A stretch of DNA of 64,000 nucleotides from contig NZ_CP089507.1 of assembly GCF_021233355.1 (NCBI RefSeq), positions 1,116,001-1,180,000 on the forward strand, read 5' to 3'. The position numbers and the translations under genes were made by a program. Origin of the DNA: Luteimonas fraxinea. GTDB lineage: Bacteria > Pseudomonadota > Gammaproteobacteria > Xanthomonadales > Xanthomonadaceae. Under the pieces are notes generated by a model. It had not been told where the DNA came from. It did no database searches and was given only the letters and a program-made list of their open reading frames with translations. Each line of letters begins with the position of its first letter. Position 1 is the first letter of the stretch. Of the stretch, positions 35,236 through 43,528 are shown piece after piece.

Positions 35236-36450
35236 TCAGCGGTCCAGACGATCGAAGGAAAACAGGGCCGCCAGCGGATGTTTGCGCCGCTCGATCAGCG
35301 CCCGCAGCAGGCCGGCGCCCAGCATCGAATAGGTGATGCCGTTGCCGCCATAGGCCATCGCGAAATGCACGCGCTTGCCCGTCGCGGCGTGCGGGCCGAA
35401 GAACGGCAGGCCGTCTTCGGTTTCGGCGAAGGTGCCGGCCCAGGAGAACGTGGGCGTCAGGTCGAGATCCGGGCGTATCTTCGCGATCTGTTTCATCAGC
35501 ACGCGCGCCTTCTTCTCCACGCGCGCGTCGCGCCTTGCGGGCACGTCGACATCGTCGTCCTCGCCGCCGATCAGCAGGCGCCGGTCGCCGGTGGTTCGCA
35601 TGTAGAGATAGGGCCGCGCGGTTTCCCAGACCAGGGTGTGGGTGAGCGGACCGAGCTGGGCTTCGGAGATCGGATCGGTGACGAAGGCATAGCTGCTGCG
35701 GTTGCGCGCGACCTGCTTCGGCAGCCAGTGCTGGCTGGCGTAGCCGGCAGCGATCACGACGTGGCGGGCGCGGATGCGCGCGCCGTTGTCGGTAGTCGCG
35801 ACGACATCGCGCGGACGCGCATCGAGCCGCAGGATCGCGGTGCGGTCGAACACCTGCGCGCCACGCTTCACCAGTCGCGCGAGCAGCCGTGACGCGAAGC
35901 GGTAGGGATCGACCTGCGCAGCCTGCTTGCTGCGCAGCGCAGCGGGCGCGTCGATCATGTATTCGGCCTTCAGCGGTTCCGATTCCAGATACTCGATGTC
36001 GAAGCCGTGGCGTCGACGCGCGTCGTATTCCTCGCGCAGGCTGGCGACGTCGCGCCTGCGGCTGGCGTAGTACAGGCTGTCGGCGCGTTCGAAATCCACA
36101 TCGCGCAGGCCGCGTGCGACCTCGCCCAGCATGTCGATCGACTCGCCGCAGGCGCGATACGCCATTGCGGCATCGTCCTCGCCGTAGCGCTTGGCCAGAT
36201 CCACCAGATGGGTGTCGATCTCGTACTGCAGCAGCGCGGTGCTCGCGGCCGTGCTGCCCCAGGCGATGTCGCGCTGCTCGACGACGACGACCGAATTTCC
36301 GTGCGTGGCGAGTTCGTCGGCGATCAACGCGCCGGTGATGCCGCCGCCGATGACCAGCACGTCGCAGGCCACGTCGGCTTCAAGCCGCGGGAACGCGTGC
36401 ATCAGACCGTTGCGCACGGCCCAGAAGGGGTAACCGCTCTTGAGGTCCAT
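35236..36450 (-). CDS. DAO-family FAD-dependent oxidoreductase
   Basis: 404 residues. The FAD-binding motif [22 protein letters not shown] (about 30-51) is followed by [24 protein letters not shown], typical of D-amino-acid oxidase-like enzymes (glycine oxidase, GlpD, MnmC-like). A C-terminal FAD contact is [20 protein letters not shown]. It likely oxidises an amine or hydroxy substrate; nothing identifies which. It lies 31 bp downstream of nothing coding on its own side and ends 31 bp before the GIY-YIG/GNAT gene, so co-transcription is plausible. Divergent from the HI0933-family gene. Confidence 0.85.
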
Positions 36451-36576
36451 GCGCGCGCATCGGCTGGGAGGTGCGACAGCCTAGGCACGCGTGCGTGAAT
36501 ACGTCGACGACGGCCTCCGACGACAGCCGCGACCGGCGACCGCTAGACTGCGCGCCCCTGCCCGACCCGTGCTGCG

Positions 36577-37794
36577 ATGTCCGTTGTTCCTGCCCCCGCC
36601 TCCACCGCCCTGCCGTCCACCGAGTGGGACGTCATCGTGCTGGGCGCCGGCGCGGCCGGCCTGATGGCGGCGATCGCGGCCGGCCAGCGCGGGCGCCGCG
36701 TGCTGGTGGTCGACCACGCGAACAAGGTCGGCAAGAAGATCCTGATGTCGGGCGGCGGCCACTGCAATTTCACCAACACCGGCACCACGCCGGCCCAGTA
36801 CCTCTCGGACAACCCGCACTTCTGCAAGTCCGCGCTGGCACGCTACACGCCGCAGGATTTCATCGAGCTGGTCGACCGCCACGGCATCGCCTGGCACGAG
36901 AAAGAGCTGGGCCAGCTGTTCTGCGATGGCTCCTCGAAGCAGATCGTGCAGTTGCTGCTCGACGAGGCCGACGCCGTCGGCGTGCAGCTGCGCACGCACT
37001 GCACGGTGCAGTTGCCGCGACGCGTCGACGACGGCTACGTGATCGACACCGCAGCCGGGCGACTGCGCTGCGCCTCGCTGATCGTCGCGACCGGCGGCCT
37101 GTCGATTCCGAGCATGGGCGCTAGCGGCTTCGGCTACGACCTCGCGCGCGGCTTCGGCCACACGCTGGTGCCGACGCGCGCGGGCCTGGTGCCGCTGACG
37201 CTCAGTGGCAAACACCAGGAACGACTGGACGAACTCTCCGGCGTCGCACTCGATGTCGAAGCCGGCTGCAACGGCGCGTTCTTCCGCAACCGCATGTTGG
37301 TCACGCACCGCGGCATCAGCGGCCCTGCGATCCTGCAGATCTCGTCCTACTGGCAACCCGGCGACGATCTGCGTCTGGACCTGCTGCCTGGCCGCGATGC
37401 GCTGGCGTGGCTGCAGACGCAGCAGGCCGAGCGCCCCGGCACCGAACTGAAGAACGTGCTGGCCGAACTGATGCCACGCCGGTTCGCGCAGCGCTTGTGC
37501 GAGATCTGGCTGCCGAACCGGCCAATGAAGCAGTTCACCCCGCCGCAGCTGCAGGACGCCGCCGCGCTGCTGCAGGCCTGGCCGCTGGTCGCCAGCGGCA
37601 CCGAGGGCTACCGCACAGCTGAGGTCACGCTTGGCGGCGTGGATACCGGCGGCGTGTCGTCGCGCACGATGGAATCACAGCACGCGCCCGGGCTGTACTT
37701 CATCGGCGAAGTGCTCGACGTCACCGGATGGCTCGGCGGCTACAACTTCCAGTGGGCCTGGGCCTCGGGCATGGCGGCGGGCAGCGCGGCCTAG
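36577..37794 (+). CDS. HI0933/BaiN-family flavoprotein
   Basis: 405 residues. Family hallmarks are clear: VIVLGAGAAGLMAAIAAGQRG at the N-terminus, NKVGKKILMSGGGHCNFTNT, the C-terminal part TLGGVDTGGVSSRTMES and the FAD closure GEVLDVTGWLGGYNFQWAWASG. Members are NAD(P)/FAD-dependent; most have no known substrate, and one homologue (BaiN) acts in bile acid dehydroxylation. Probably cytosolic. Single-gene unit, convergent with aroG. Confidence 0.9.
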   Translation: MSVVPAPASTALPSTEWDVIVLGAGAAGLMAAIAAGQRGRRVLVVDHANKVGKKILMSGGGHCNFTNTGTTPAQYLSDNPHFCKSALARYTPQDFIELVDRHGIAWHEKELGQLFCDGSSKQIVQLLLDEADAVGVQLRTHCTVQLPRRVDDGYVIDTAAGRLRCASLIVATGGLSIPSMGASGFGYDLARGFGHTLVPTRAGLVPLTLSGKHQERLDELSGVALDVEAGCNGAFFRNRMLVTHRGISGPAILQISSYWQPGDDLRLDLLPGRDALAWLQTQQAERPGTELKNVLAELMPRRFAQRLCEIWLPNRPMKQFTPPQLQDAAALLQAWPLVASGTEGYRTAEVTLGGVDTGGVSSRTMESQHAPGLYFIGEVLDVTGWLGGYNFQWAWASGMAAGSAA

Positions 37795-37807
37795 CTTTTC
37801 TGCAGGC

Positions 37808-38881
37808 TCAGGCCGCCTGCGAATCCGCCGGCGCGCGGCGCGTCCGCACCGCATCCGCGAGACGGTCGAGCGTGCGCACCGTCGTGCCCCAGTCGATGCA
37901 GCCGTCGGTGATGCTCTGGCCGTAGACCAGCGGCGCGCCCGGCACCAGCGCCTGCTTGCCTGCAACGAGATGGCTTTCGATCATCGCGCCGACGATGCGG
38001 CGCTCGCCGCTTTCGAGCTGACGCGCGATGTCACCGATGACCTTCGGCTGGTTGTCGGCATTCTTGCTGCTGTTGGCGTGGCTGGCATCGATCATCAACG
38101 CCGCGCGCAGACCCTGCGCCTGCAGCACGCCCGATGCAGACTCGACGTGCGCCGCGTCGTAGTTGGGCACCGCGCCGCCGCGCAGGATCACGTGGCAATC
38201 CAGATTGCCGGACGTCGAGGCCACCGCGCAGCGCCCGTCCTTGCCGACGGCGAGGAAATGGTGCGGATGCGAGGCCGCGCCGACCGCATCCACCGCAATG
38301 CGCACGTCGCCGCCGGTGCCGTTCTTGAAGCCGACCGGACACGACAACCCCGACGCCATCTCGCGATGCACCTGGCTCTCGGTCGTGCGCGCACCGATCG
38401 CGCCCCAGGCCACCAGATCGGCGATGTATTGCGGGCTGATGATGTCGAGGAATTCGACACCAGCCGGCAGGCCCAGCGCATTGACCTCGCGCAGCAGCCC
38501 GCGCGCCAGACGAAGGCCTTTGTCGATGTGGAAGCTGCCGTCGAGATCGGGATCGTTGATCAGACCCTTCCAGCCGATCGTCGTGCGCGGCTTCTCGAAG
38601 TACACGCGCATCACCAGTTCCAGCGCGTCGCCATGCGTGTCGCGCAGCGCGCGCAGGCGGTGCGCGTACTCCATCGCCGCGACCGGGTCGTGGATCGAGC
38701 ACGGGCCGACGATGACGATCAAGCGGTCGTCCTCGCCGTGCAGGATCGCGTGGCAGGCCGCGCGGGCGTCGGCGACGGTCGTCGACATCGCGTCACTGCA
38801 GGGCAGTTCGGCGAGCAGCGTGGCGGGCGGGGTCAGCGGTTGCAGGTCGCGGATGCGGAGGTCGTCGGTGTGCGGGGGCAT
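37808..38881 (-). CDS. aroG: 3-deoxy-7-phosphoheptulonate (DAHP) synthase, class I
   Basis: 357 residues from MPPHTDDLRIRD. Condenses phosphoenolpyruvate and erythrose 4-phosphate, the committed step to chorismate and Phe/Tyr/Trp. Class I AroF/G/H motifs are visible: VGPCSIHDP (PEP site), MRVYFEKPRTTIGWKG, DIISPQYIADLVAWGAIGARTTESQ, FKNGTGG and the metal-binding DASHANSSKN and GQSITDGCI. Which amino acid feeds back on it cannot be read. The 165 bp upstream hold an aromatic-rich leader peptide and a terminator, so transcription attenuation is likely. Another shikimate gene, aroQ, lies at 48172. Confidence 0.95.
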   Translation of the reverse strand: MPPHTDDLRIRDLQPLTPPATLLAELPCSDAMSTTVADARAACHAILHGEDDRLIVIVGPCSIHDPVAAMEYAHRLRALRDTHGDALELVMRVYFEKPRTTIGWKGLINDPDLDGSFHIDKGLRLARGLLREVNALGLPAGVEFLDIISPQYIADLVAWGAIGARTTESQVHREMASGLSCPVGFKNGTGGDVRIAVDAVGAASHPHHFLAVGKDGRCAVASTSGNLDCHVILRGGAVPNYDAAHVESASGVLQAQGLRAALMIDASHANSSKNADNQPKVIGDIARQLESGERRIVGAMIESHLVAGKQALVPGAPLVYGQSITDGCIDWGTTVRTLDRLADAVRTRRAPADSQAA

Positions 38882-38910
38882 GGTCGATCTCGGAAACGGA
38901 AGGCTGGAAA

Positions 38911-38941
38911 CGAAAAAAGCCGCCAGGGTCTCTGGCGGCTT
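38911..38941 (-). terminator. Terminator hairpin (attenuator) ahead of aroG
   Basis: A 10-bp perfect stem (AAGCCGCCAG/CTGGCGGCTT, 5-nt loop) is followed on the minus strand by a six-T run, 30 nt before the aroG ATG. It lies after a leader peptide gene and before the structural gene. Its 5' arm contains GCCGCC, which can also pair with GGCGGC in the leader (38988-38993). Confidence 0.85.
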
Positions 38942-38965
38942 CCGGGACATACGTGCGACCTGGTG

Positions 38966-39046
38966 TCAGGGCGCGCGCCGACCGTCCGCCGCCTGTGGCG
39001 TCGGAAACGCATACCAATAGAAATAGCTGGCGGGGCGCGAGGTCAT
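38966..39046 (-). CDS. aroG leader peptide
   Basis: A 26-residue open frame with SYFYWYAF at residues 7-14: three Tyr, two Phe and one Trp in eight codons. Such clustering of the end-product amino acids of the pathway is the signature of an attenuation leader. The frame ends 25 nt before the terminator stem. When charged aromatic tRNAs are short, stalling at codons 8-14 would free GGCGGC (38988-38993) to pair with the terminator arm and prevent termination. No good Shine-Dalgarno is seen, so the exact start is less certain than the codon run. Confidence 0.8.
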   Translation of the reverse strand: MTSRPASYFYWYAFPTPQAADGRRAP

Positions 39047-39116
39047 GGCGCCATTGATAACACGGCGCTCCGCGCGGTGCGACGGTTGCAGTCGCGACCA
39101 TCGCGACCCGCCGCCT

Positions 39117-41309
39117 TCACTCGGGCAGCAGCGGCGGCCGGGATTCGTACCAGTCGCGCGCACCGGCGATGTGCAGCTTGCGGTCGCCGCCCTGCAGCTC
39201 GACGCCCATGCCGAGCACACCCCAGCGCGCATACAGATCCCCGTTCGGCGTGCCGTCGGCGATGCGCAAGCGCGCCTGCATGTCGATGCGGTCGTTGCTG
39301 GCCTGCACGCGATCGAACACCAGCTCGTTGCCGCGCAGACGCAGGTCGCCGGTCGCGTGCGCTTCGCCCGAATCGATCAGATTGCCGATCCAGCGCGGGA
39401 ACACACTGCGCTCGGCGAACAGGCCCAGCAGCACGCTGACATCACGCATGTCGACGCGACCGCGGCCGGTGACTTCGAAGGGTTCGCGCCAGTCCAGCGT
39501 GCCGTTTTCAAGTGCGAGCTTTGCCCACCACGGCGCATCGTCGCCACCGGAGCCGTCGAGCCGCACACCGTCGAGACGCAGCGCCATCGCATCGATCTTG
39601 TAACGCCGTCCGACGCGCTGCATGCGCGACAGGCGGCTGTCGAGATCGACGTTGCCCGACAGTTGCGACGGCCCCAGCGCGACGCGCACATCCTGACCGC
39701 GCACGCGCATGCGCCCGCCGATCATCTCGCCACCGTTGTCGAGACGGATGTCGCCGCTGGCATGGCCGCTGCCGCCAACCAGACGTGCACTGTCGCCGGG
39801 CAGATAGCGGTTGTAGGTGCGCAGGTCCGGCACCTGCGCATCGTCGAAGCGCAGGCGCGCATCGAGACGTTCGTGGAACTCGGCCAGCGCGCCGGTGGAA
39901 CTCAGATCCAGCCGCAGATCGCGGCCGCGCAGATCGATCCGGTCCGGCGCTGATTCGGGCGCGAGCGTGAAGCGGTCAAGCACGATGCCGATCGTCGTGC
40001 GCTGACCGGCCTGGGCGTCGTCGCGCATCCGCATGCGGGCGTGCGCATTGCCGCTGAAACGGTTGTCGAGCACGCGCGCGGTCAGCGCTGCATGGTCGAG
40101 ATCGATGCGGCTGCCGGGCTGCAGTTGCCCCTCGTGCAGGCGCACGTCGGCGTCGAGATCGGCGCGGCCGTCGAACGCCAGCCAGTCGACGTCGCGCAGG
40201 ATCACGTCGATCCAGCGCAGCGGCACTGCCGGCCATTGCGTCTCGACCGTGCCGCCCAGCGCGCGCACCGGTCGCAACCAGTCGTCCGGGCCGATACGGC
40301 GATCCGCAACACGCAGGTCGGCACGCAGCCACGGCGTGCCCGACGCCGGCGCCGGCACGCGCGCGGCGACGAGGATCGCGTCGGACGATGTGCGCAAGGC
40401 CACGCCCAGCGGGTGTCGCAGCGGCGTGCCGTCGGCCGCGCTGGAATACACCGGCGCCGACCAGTCGAGCTGGCTGCCCGGCATCAGCACGCCGCGCTCC
40501 AGGGTCAGATCGGCGCGCAGATGACCCACAAAACCGGATGTGCCGATCGGCAGGGCGTCGTCGTTGCGCGCGACCAGATCGATGCCCGGCGCCGGACCAT
40601 CGACGCGCATGTGCGCATCGAGCAGCACCAGCTTCTCCTCTCCCTGCGCCTGCTCGCGGATGTGCGCGGGAATCGCGATCTCGAACTCGAGCATGCCCTC
40701 GCGCAGCACCGTCACGTCGCTGATCTGAAGGGTCGCGTCCGGCATCGTCAGCGTGGACGGACCGACTTCCATCGCGCCGCCCTGCAGCGTCTTTTCGAAT
40801 TCGAAGCGCGCCTCGCCGTGACCGGTCACACGCGCGTCGTAGAAATCCAGCCGCAGCAGGCTCGGCGTGGTGATCGCGGCGAAGCGGATCGTCCACGGCG
40901 ACTTGCCGGGACGCACCGTCGTCGGCAGATCGTGCGGCGTGCGCGCGACGTGCACCGACACGTTCTGCGCGCGGATTCTGCCGAATGTGATCTCGCGTCC
41001 GAGCAGCGGCAGAATCCGGATGCGCCCGTTGGCGCGCGGGCTGGCGATCGTCCACAGGTTCGTGCGCGCATGGCCGCCCATGACGATGCCACGCGCGTGG
41101 ATGTGCCCTGGATACAGGCTCATCGCCCAGTCCCAGCGCGCATGGAAACGCTCGGGCTTGCGGTTGATCACGCCGTCGCCGAACGCGCTGTTGAGGAACA
41201 CGTTGGCTGCGACGAGATACAGCAGATACAGCGCGCACGCGACGATAGCCGCGCGGCGCAGGCCGCTGCGGTGCACGCGCCACCACGGATCGGGAGAGTT
41301 CGCCAGCAT
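39117..41309 (-). CDS. AsmA/TamB-like large envelope protein (tentative)
   Basis: 730 residues. One N-terminal membrane segment (about 19-38, AAIVACALYLLYLVAANVF) is followed by about 690 predicted periplasmic residues. The latter are made of repeating beta-type phrases (FDGRADLDADVRLHEGQL, RLDNGGEMIGGRMRVRG, DLRLRGNELVFDRVQASNDRIDMQARL), as in AsmA-like proteins that bridge the envelope and move phospholipids. No single AsmA signature is clear, so a family-specific DUF is possible. Not in an evident operon: the aroG leader starts 70 bp downstream and the gene upstream is doubtful. Confidence 0.75.
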   Translation of the reverse strand: MLANSPDPWWRVHRSGLRRAAIVACALYLLYLVAANVFLNSAFGDGVINRKPERFHARWDWAMSLYPGHIHARGIVMGGHARTNLWTIASPRANGRIRILPLLGREITFGRIRAQNVSVHVARTPHDLPTTVRPGKSPWTIRFAAITTPSLLRLDFYDARVTGHGEARFEFEKTLQGGAMEVGPSTLTMPDATLQISDVTVLREGMLEFEIAIPAHIREQAQGEEKLVLLDAHMRVDGPAPGIDLVARNDDALPIGTSGFVGHLRADLTLERGVLMPGSQLDWSAPVYSSAADGTPLRHPLGVALRTSSDAILVAARVPAPASGTPWLRADLRVADRRIGPDDWLRPVRALGGTVETQWPAVPLRWIDVILRDVDWLAFDGRADLDADVRLHEGQLQPGSRIDLDHAALTARVLDNRFSGNAHARMRMRDDAQAGQRTTIGIVLDRFTLAPESAPDRIDLRGRDLRLDLSSTGALAEFHERLDARLRFDDAQVPDLRTYNRYLPGDSARLVGGSGHASGDIRLDNGGEMIGGRMRVRGQDVRVALGPSQLSGNVDLDSRLSRMQRVGRRYKIDAMALRLDGVRLDGSGGDDAPWWAKLALENGTLDWREPFEVTGRGRVDMRDVSVLLGLFAERSVFPRWIGNLIDSGEAHATGDLRLRGNELVFDRVQASNDRIDMQARLRIADGTPNGDLYARWGVLGMGVELQGGDRKLHIAGARDWYESRPPLLPE

Positions 41310-41817
41310 CGCTGAAGCATGAGCGAGTGGCAGTGACGATTGCCTGCACGCACACCGCTACCGCGCGCACGCTGCGGACGCGATGCGCGTCAGGATCAAC
41401 GCTGCGAAGGGACGCGCTGAACCGGCCTGCTCAAAACGCGCCAGTCACCCGCGCACGATGCGCGACACGCGCCAGCCGCCGTGGCTGCGGAAGCGTCCGC
41501 TGTTGCCGGTCAGCGCGTAGCGCATTCCGACCCACACCGCGATCGGCCATGCGCATTGCCAGGCGCGCGCCTTGCCGATGGCCTTGCGGAAATCGTGCAT
41601 GCGTCCGTTGCTCACGCGCGCACCCCGTGCATCGCGCCAGTGCGCGTCGTCCCTGTCTGCCACATCGTCCAGTCCCTGTTCCGAAAGAATCCGCGCCGCG
41701 ATCGTGCCGGTATGCCACCCCGCGCACCCGCCCTGCCATCTCACCATAAGGTGATACACGTCACATTACAGGATCCAGCGATCCGGGCGCCCGGGAATCA
41801 CGAGAACGTCCAGACGG
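41310..41817. other. Gap between the groEL terminator and the AsmA-like gene
   Basis: About 500 bp with at most one doubtful small gene (41445-41747, minus). No repeat, tRNA or clear operator was found. A TGTAAT hexamer on the minus strand near 41765 could be a -10 for the small frame or for the AsmA-like gene. Confidence 0.4.
41445..41747 (-). CDS. Possible small protein, unknown
   Basis: A 100-residue frame from ATG 41747 (MVRWQGGCAGW); a GTG four codons earlier is possible. It has a Trp-rich, weakly hydrophobic part (AWQCAWPIAVWVGMRYALTG) and a basic C-terminus. No family recognised and no clear ribosome site. It is the best candidate in an otherwise empty interval but could be a chance frame. 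Confidence 0.3.
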   Translation of the reverse strand: MVRWQGGCAGWHTGTIAARILSEQGLDDVADRDDAHWRDARGARVSNGRMHDFRKAIGKARAWQCAWPIAVWVGMRYALTGNSGRFRSHGGWRVSRIVRG

Positions 41818-41847
41818 AAAAAAACCCCGCCTCGCGGCGGGGTTTTT
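41818..41847 (-). terminator. groEL terminator
   Basis: A 12-bp stem (AAAAACCCCGCC/GGCGGGGTTTTT, 4-nt loop) with T-runs on both strands, 29 nt after the groEL stop. Confidence 0.9.
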
Positions 41848-41875
41848 CGTCAACGGTGCAGCGGATGGGGCTGGA

Positions 41876-43528
<1,653 letters not shown>

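Follow-up and report, generated by a model that had tools for sequence, protein, structure and literature searches.

In Escherichia coli, the entry enzymes of aromatic amino acid synthesis are regulated by TyrR, TrpR and feedback. What could control this step in Luteimonas fraxinea is the question raised by its aroG locus, where a short frame rich in aromatic codons and a terminator-like hairpin stand before a DAHP synthase gene. Here, we have analyzed a 64-kb stretch of the L. fraxinea genome (the window, to which all positions refer unless a contig is given) and compared the locus with those of other bacteria. The gene that would be controlled, aroG, lies at 37808..38881 on the minus strand and encodes a type I DAHP synthase of 357 aa (TIGR00034, 505.5 bits with a cut-off of 173.2; PF00793 also matches). 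The AroG equivalog model was the best match yet remained below its cut-off (517.8 vs 568), whereas the AroH subfamily model passed its own cut-off for the same 357-aa protein (481.7 vs 463); thus, the letter G in 'aroG' is a convention. An alternative start at 38950 (380 aa) is possible and would place the terminator within the gene; relatives share the start at 38881 (357 aa), not 38950.

The sequence-only reading had described a 26-codon frame with the stretch SYFYWYAF (six aromatic codons in eight), followed by a perfect 10-bp hairpin and six Ts between this leader and the DAHP synthase gene. On re-reading, the frame, MTSRPASYFYWYAFPTPQAADGRRAP, proved exact in its coordinates (39046-38966; like the other parts of the element, on the minus strand), and the hairpin was found again, with a gap of 31 nt between the T run and the aroG ATG (38881). 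The sensor codons, Tyr Phe Tyr Trp Tyr Ala Phe, occupy 39005..39025 and are marked out by their pN/pS (see below). The terminator reads AAGCCGCCAG-AGACC-CTGGCGGCTTTTTT, in which region 3 (5' arm AAGCCGCCAG, 38932..38941) and region 4 (3' arm CTGGCGGCTT, 38917..38926), both identified by sequence and terminator covariation, enclose the loop AGACC, and the six Ts (38913..38918) share two positions with the 10-bp stem. Region 2, CAGGCGGC (38988..38995), lies within the leader ORF and is the putative antiterminator strand on the grounds of conservation, pairing and modelled folding; its GGCGGC (38993-38988) is indeed complementary to GCCGCC of the terminator 5' arm, as had been claimed. A possible second antiterminator helix would join GGAC (38984..38987) to GTCC (38945..38948). 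Region 1 (approximately 39029..39039) can pair with region 2 to form a protector hairpin, with support at the level of groups of loci. A near-perfect G+C hairpin with A and T runs at its flanks, terminator-like in both directions, was also noticed at 41820-41847, just past the 3' end of a groEL-like ORF (41876-43516, minus strand).

Upstream of the leader, an extended -10 element (TGTTATCAA, 39054..39062) ends 7 nt 5' of the leader ATG, with a -35-like hexamer (TCGCAC, 39077..39082) 17 nt from it. The -35 was weakly conserved among Lysobacterales. On the other hand, TGnTA[T/C] was present upstream of 33 of 35 Lysobacterales leaders, always ending 6-9 nt before the ATG (8 nt in 16 leaders, 7 nt in 14, 9 nt in 2 and 6 nt in 1); of 1750 shuffles, 19 had it at this place. 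Because the extended -10 ends 7-8 nt before the ATG in most Lysobacterales, their aroG leader message is probably leaderless, and the L. fraxinea leader is predicted to be so. In the Burkholderiaceae group a -10-like site was found ~40 nt upstream of the leader; leaderless starts are therefore not general. According to the accessible text of PMC4842269, leaderless mRNAs of B. japonicum are preceded by the same TGnTA motif, and that of PMC10117765 and PMC7298713 describes trpL of S. meliloti as leaderless.

The occurrence of the element was examined by using a strict detector, which accepts an ORF of 8-45 codons with at least four F/Y/W in eight residues and, no more than 80 nt further on, a G+C hairpin with at least four Ts. 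On both strands of the window, it found one site, the aroG leader. An AroG protein was present in 26 of 120 related genomes, L. fraxinea included. Type I aroG is patchy among these relatives, the 26 genomes comprising L. fraxinea and 16 others of the genus. Of 27 loci collected, L029 was left out, being the second copy of a genome and sharing its upstream sequence with L026. Conservation of the aromatic cluster and the hairpin, against which the sequence-only reading could be checked, was found at all 26 Lysobacterales loci; 25 were accepted by the strict detector and the other, L007, has a hairpin with an interrupted T run. A covariance model built from the 26 leaders (R1) scored 136.5 bits at the aroG site of L. 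fraxinea and 19.5 bits at the next match off this site, and the element occurs once in this genome. Among 200 genomes of the order, 102 had an R1 match at E<=0.01, and 42 had a full-length match of at least 66 bits, one per genome (nine belonging to the training set). All 30 of these 42 whose locus was fetched adjoined aroG, just upstream of it. A weak full-length match (33.8 bits) was seen in another family of the order (G097:C36:27341-27469).

In a wider set, 56 of 80 named loci, which were the best matches to the Lysobacterales AroG alignment ranked by similarity, passed the strict detector. These included loci of Lysobacteraceae (4/4), Rhodanobacteraceae (3/3), Burkholderiaceae (14/16), Oxalobacteraceae (11/12), Nitrobacteraceae (6/6), Devosiaceae (4/4), Phyllobacteriaceae (3/3), Caulobacteraceae (2/2) and Rhizobiaceae (1/1), as well as 8 of 14 loci without a family (2/2 alpha, 4/5 beta, 0/2 gamma, 2/4 unplaced and 0/1 Anaerolineae). 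Caulobacter radicis and several Bradyrhizobium were among the bacteria in which the element was seen. None of the six loci of Enterobacteriaceae, Erwiniaceae and Pectobacteriaceae and not the single one of Vibrionaceae passed, these being the best AroG matches rather than aroF-tyrA; nor did those of Ferrovaceae (0/2), Zoogloeaceae (0/2), Rhodocyclaceae (0/1), Paracoccaceae (0/1), Halieaceae (0/1) and Thiohalobacteraceae (0/1). In a sample of the phylum, AroG was present in 218 of 396 genomes, from which 90 loci were taken (the 30 best matches, five of them repeating earlier loci, and 60 hand-picked over families). Forty-three of the 90 passed, in 11 of 32 families sampled; such pass counts are not prevalence figures because the loci were not sampled at random and some clear leaders escape the detector (in group f16, four of nine). 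Dinucleotide shuffles of the 90 upstream regions gave no hit in 900. On a FastTree tree of 131 AroG proteins, with L007 scored present by hand, leader presence required 11 changes compared with 24.1 for shuffled labels (0/500 as low). Leader presence is clustered on this tree, where gain and loss are inseparable. Judged from these comparisons, the attenuator is most likely present before DAHP synthase in many alpha-, beta- and gammaproteobacteria.

Covariation of the two alternative pairings, which had been suggested as a check, gave a divided answer: the terminator covaries within the family, the antiterminator core is invariant there, and covariation across families is moderate. In the Lysobacterales alignment, 99.2% of terminator cells were paired and three pairs had changed on both sides. 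For the 2:3 antiterminator, no covariation was found inside Lysobacterales; as its core never varies, covariation cannot test it there. It should be noted that the U-A pair of the antiterminator was broken in 15 of 23 Lysobacterales sequences, which counts against it. Nevertheless, the proposed pairing of region 2 with the terminator 5' arm persists well outside the family: of 114 unique leader ORFs, 103 have an exact GGCGG (11% in shuffles). Across families, and by shuffles that ignore the relatedness of loci, three of six flanking pairs were in excess (-1:+5, 41 of 66 paired against a shuffled mean of 34.4; +5:-1, 29 vs 24.7, p 0.0065; -2:+6, 46 vs 42.0, p 0.048), with no excess for the other three. 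In addition, all five Rhizobium-like loci (L074, L140, L144, L148 and L152) have AGCGG in the leader and CCGCT in the arm, A-U replacing G-C, and their terminator 3' arm retains GGCGG; since they form one lineage, they represent one paired-change event at most. The second helix (GGA~UCC) was stronger than in all 50 shuffles and modest in comparison with swaps (3/200 as low). Of seven groups, Alpha, Burkholderiaceae and Lysobacterales had a 1:2 pairing stronger than in any of 50 shuffles; it was marginal in Oxalobacteraceae (4/50 shuffles), and three small groups showed no excess. The groups, which served also for spacing and folding, were defined from patterns in the peptides, so that a few MAG loci (for example L035 and L105) may be in the wrong one. 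When leaders and arms were swapped between lineages, native combinations were better (-23.6 vs -21.7) and, on average, 34% of foreign leaders paired better than the native one, indicating that lineage-specific co-adaptation is weak overall.

The distance from the last aromatic codon to GGCGG had group medians of 12-20 nt (14 nt in Lysobacterales). With an assumed ribosome footprint of 15 nt before to 12 nt after the first base of the A-site codon, we computed the probability of the 2:3 pairing, P(2:3), for the transcript up to the terminator loop, that is, before region 4 emerges. For the L. fraxinea leader, predicted P(2:3) was 0.88-0.99 with the ribosome on Y8-Y12 and F14 (0.92 at F14) and 0.06 on P15. 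A sharp fall was also obtained in five other examples, at the end of the cluster in L059 and L178 and one to three aromatic codons before it in L017, L024 and L046; against the model, F15 of L017 and F12, Y13 and Y15 of L024 lie past the modelled edge. Group means for six groups were 0.75-0.97 on aromatic codons vs 0.00-0.10 nearer the stop (a six-codon window ending four codons before it). With AGCGG as the anchor, the five Rhizobium-like loci gave 0.51-1.00 with the ribosome on codons 11-14 (F Y S/W Y) and 0.00-0.03 at codon 15 and beyond, L140 also giving 0.60-0.89 on codons 2-10. The switch looked especially clean in four of these five, and P(2:3) was 0.00 without a ribosome and at the stop in all five.

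Some folding results stand against the model. First, once the ribosome reached the stop codon, P(2:3) rose again, to 0.46 in L. fraxinea and to group means of 0.30-0.93 over the same six groups, Rhizobium-like loci excepted. In the model, region 2 is then partly free, which would work against termination unless release or timing prevents it. Second, P(2:3) was 0.87 for L. fraxinea without a ribosome. This preference for the antiterminator differs from the textbook default of trp. Finally, equilibrium folding of the full transcript favored the terminator at every ribosome position in five of six examples, L. fraxinea included (the exception being Bradyrhizobium L046 for some ribosome positions as far as W10), and thus the switch must be kinetic.

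The aroG element is very probably a ribosome-mediated transcription attenuator, as had been proposed. The leader is short and rich in codons for end products of the pathway, an intrinsic terminator separates it from aroG at 26 of 26 loci, sequence and prediction point to a conserved antiterminator exclusive with this terminator, and the sensor codons are so spaced that a stalled ribosome is predicted, with the assumed footprint, to leave the antiterminator strand free. RNA polymerase would start at or beside the leader ATG, and a ribosome would load on the leaderless message. When charged Tyr, Phe or Trp tRNA is short, the ribosome would wait on the aromatic codons, leaving region 2 (CAGGCGGC) free to pair with nascent region 3 (GCCGCCAG); the 2:3 pairing would block the terminator, and aroG would be transcribed. 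When the three amino acids are plentiful, the ribosome would cover region 2, region 3 would pair with region 4, and transcription would end ~130 nt after its start. What we infer from the sequence is where transcription starts, that the ribosome stalls, that transcripts terminate and that each of the three amino acids is sensed.

It is also conceivable, if rather unlikely, that only one or two amino acids matter to the attenuator, Tyr and Phe being the best candidates and Trp incidental. Tyr and Phe occur without Trp in 24 of the 114 unique leaders, including 10 of 13 in the Oxalobacteraceae group, and the L. fraxinea leader has a single Trp codon against three Tyr and two Phe codons. However, F, W and Y all stand upstream of region 2 in each of the 35 Lysobacterales leaders, and the modelled switch treats every aromatic codon of the L. 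fraxinea leader alike.

Further evidence came from the selection acting on the leader (uncorrected pN/pS for 12 Lysobacter-type loci, or for 25 Lysobacterales, that is, the 26 minus the frameshifted L016). In the former, pN/pS of the aromatic stretch was 0.23 with pS of 0.58, whereas that of the region-2 stretch was 0.51 with pS of only 0.18; values were 1.9 before the aromatic cluster and 1.2 at the C-terminal end. The ordering was unchanged in the 25 Lysobacterales, in which the aromatic stretch had a value of 0.28. Thus, the aromatic codons appear to be kept as amino acids and the next stretch as RNA. The start of GGCGG fell in the three frames 90, 7 and 6 times. Nine of the 13 off-frame cases were unambiguous (L016, L055, L084, L089 and five of f16), L037 has a second GGCGG in the common frame, and the remaining three are Rhizobium-like loci with AGCGG as the element. 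PLAEEG, PGGREA and LRRR are alternative readings of nearly identical bases, and in L016 a frame shift alters the end of the peptide and leaves the GGCGG element intact. A synonymous-recoding test gave no significant result for the L. fraxinea leader alone (p 0.115) and p<=0.05 for 43 of the 114 leaders, which counts against the model. The parts, their spacing, their conservation and this pattern of selection are direct observations from sequence and comparison.

The same pattern bears on what the leader could do besides attenuation. A function in trans is conceivable for the terminated leader RNA or its peptide, as reported for rnTrpL/peTrpL of Sinorhizobium meliloti, and the architecture is alike in that a leaderless short ORF is released as attenuated RNA, according to the accessible text of PMC7298713 and PMC10117765; neither the residues preceding the aromatic cluster nor those at the C terminus show conservation at the protein level, and we regard trans action as doubtful. 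We give still less credence to an arrest peptide of the TnaC type, in which the nascent peptide would bind a free amino acid and stall the ribosome by its sequence: a conserved short aromatic-rich peptide does precede an aromatic pathway gene, but the aromatic residues come in a different order from lineage to lineage (FYFWYYGF, FYRWYW, SYWYARF and YAWFYGF) and the segments on either side, with pN/pS above 1, are unconstrained, which makes this very improbable. Least credible of all is an ordinary terminator of the upstream gene combined with a fortuitous ORF, since, even though a same-strand 730-aa ORF ending at 39117 could use the terminator, a conserved promoter-like site separates that gene from the leader, leader and region 2 recur across classes, and the shuffles gave no hit in 900.

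A T-box, a riboswitch or another Rfam family was rejected because no covariance model fitted the element. In the search of 36000-42000 at E<=5, the sole match over it was Scr5676, on the other strand (19.9 bits with a gathering score of 56), and none reached the gathering score in 20 relatives. No Pfam or NCBIfam family was found at E<=1 for the leaders of L. fraxinea, L017, L019 and L046.

The L. fraxinea genome also contains pheA, trpE and a class II DAHP synthase gene (C1:840507-841811, L237; PF01474, 646.6 bits). Upstream of these three genes, with regions counted from the first possible start codon, the detector found no leader with terminator even at three aromatic residues. A low-threshold ORF with two Trp and two Phe, MPAWSLVWFLLLAAVALFAGLRTRR, was seen upstream of the class II gene, and a Trp-rich leader-like ORF (WRWWR; MHASALPHFRLLDAGWRWWRTASV...) upstream of trpE (C1:2619124 region, L239); neither had a terminator by the detector.

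The trp, pheA and ilv leaders of enterobacteria are attenuators, and ilv is controlled by several amino acids. Like them, the aroG element stands ahead of a biosynthetic gene of the pathway and combines end-product codons in a leader with an intrinsic terminator and an antiterminator that overlaps it. Unlike them, it targets DAHP synthase, the common branch point, its leader holds codons of three aromatic amino acids, its antiterminator strand falls within the leader ORF, and in Lysobacterales its message is probably leaderless. The sensing of three amino acids by one leader had been called unusual; this is less so in kind because the ilv leaders of E. coli sense several branched-chain amino acids.

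According to the accessible text of PMC7298713 and PMC10117765, trpL/rnTrpL of S. meliloti is likewise ribosome-mediated with an ORF starting at the first base of the transcript, but it uses Trp codons, lies upstream of trpE(G) and encodes a 14-aa peptide. The uORFC-13-1 motif before Acholeplasma aroF, as described in the accessible text of PMC8632094, is also a candidate uORF attenuator with a terminator before a DAHP synthase gene; it differs, by that description only, in comprising 24 sequences from Acholeplasma and environmental DNA with at least one Phe codon. Attenuation before a type I DAHP synthase gene has been proposed for E. coli aroF (PMC2659441, PMC8632094) and is listed for Vibrio aroF-tyrA (PMC1173090), in the accessible parts of these sources, which differ in concerning the tyr operon of enterobacteria and vibrios. 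Nothing on an aroG leader element was found in the accessible text of PMC2965389, PMC5343134, PMC4603805, PMC3039613, PMC4842269 and PMC4117421; the last describes 94 newly found small ORFs of Caulobacter, several of which look like leader peptides, and the aroG leader could be among those in its tables.

In the literature searched, we found no description of the element; supplementary tables and older subscription papers could hold a prediction. Panina 2001, Vitreschak 2004 and Merino and Yanofsky 2005 are said to deal with proteobacterial attenuation and could include one. As judged from these comparisons, the aroG attenuator appears to be new and widespread, and the mechanism itself, ribosome-mediated attenuation, is known.

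A broader proposal, which we put forward tentatively and somewhat short of an even chance, is that an old, leaderless three-amino-acid attenuator is a main control of DAHP synthase across much of the alpha-, beta- and gammaproteobacteria, RNA doing there what the TyrR/TrpR proteins do in enterobacteria, and that the leader RNA, once released, or its peptide may have a function in trans as well. For the attenuator itself, the finding would mean that RNA-based control of the entry step of aromatic synthesis can be read from the sequence in Xanthomonas, Burkholderia, Bradyrhizobium and others, across three classes, and that codons and RNA pairing share the same nucleotides in one short element.
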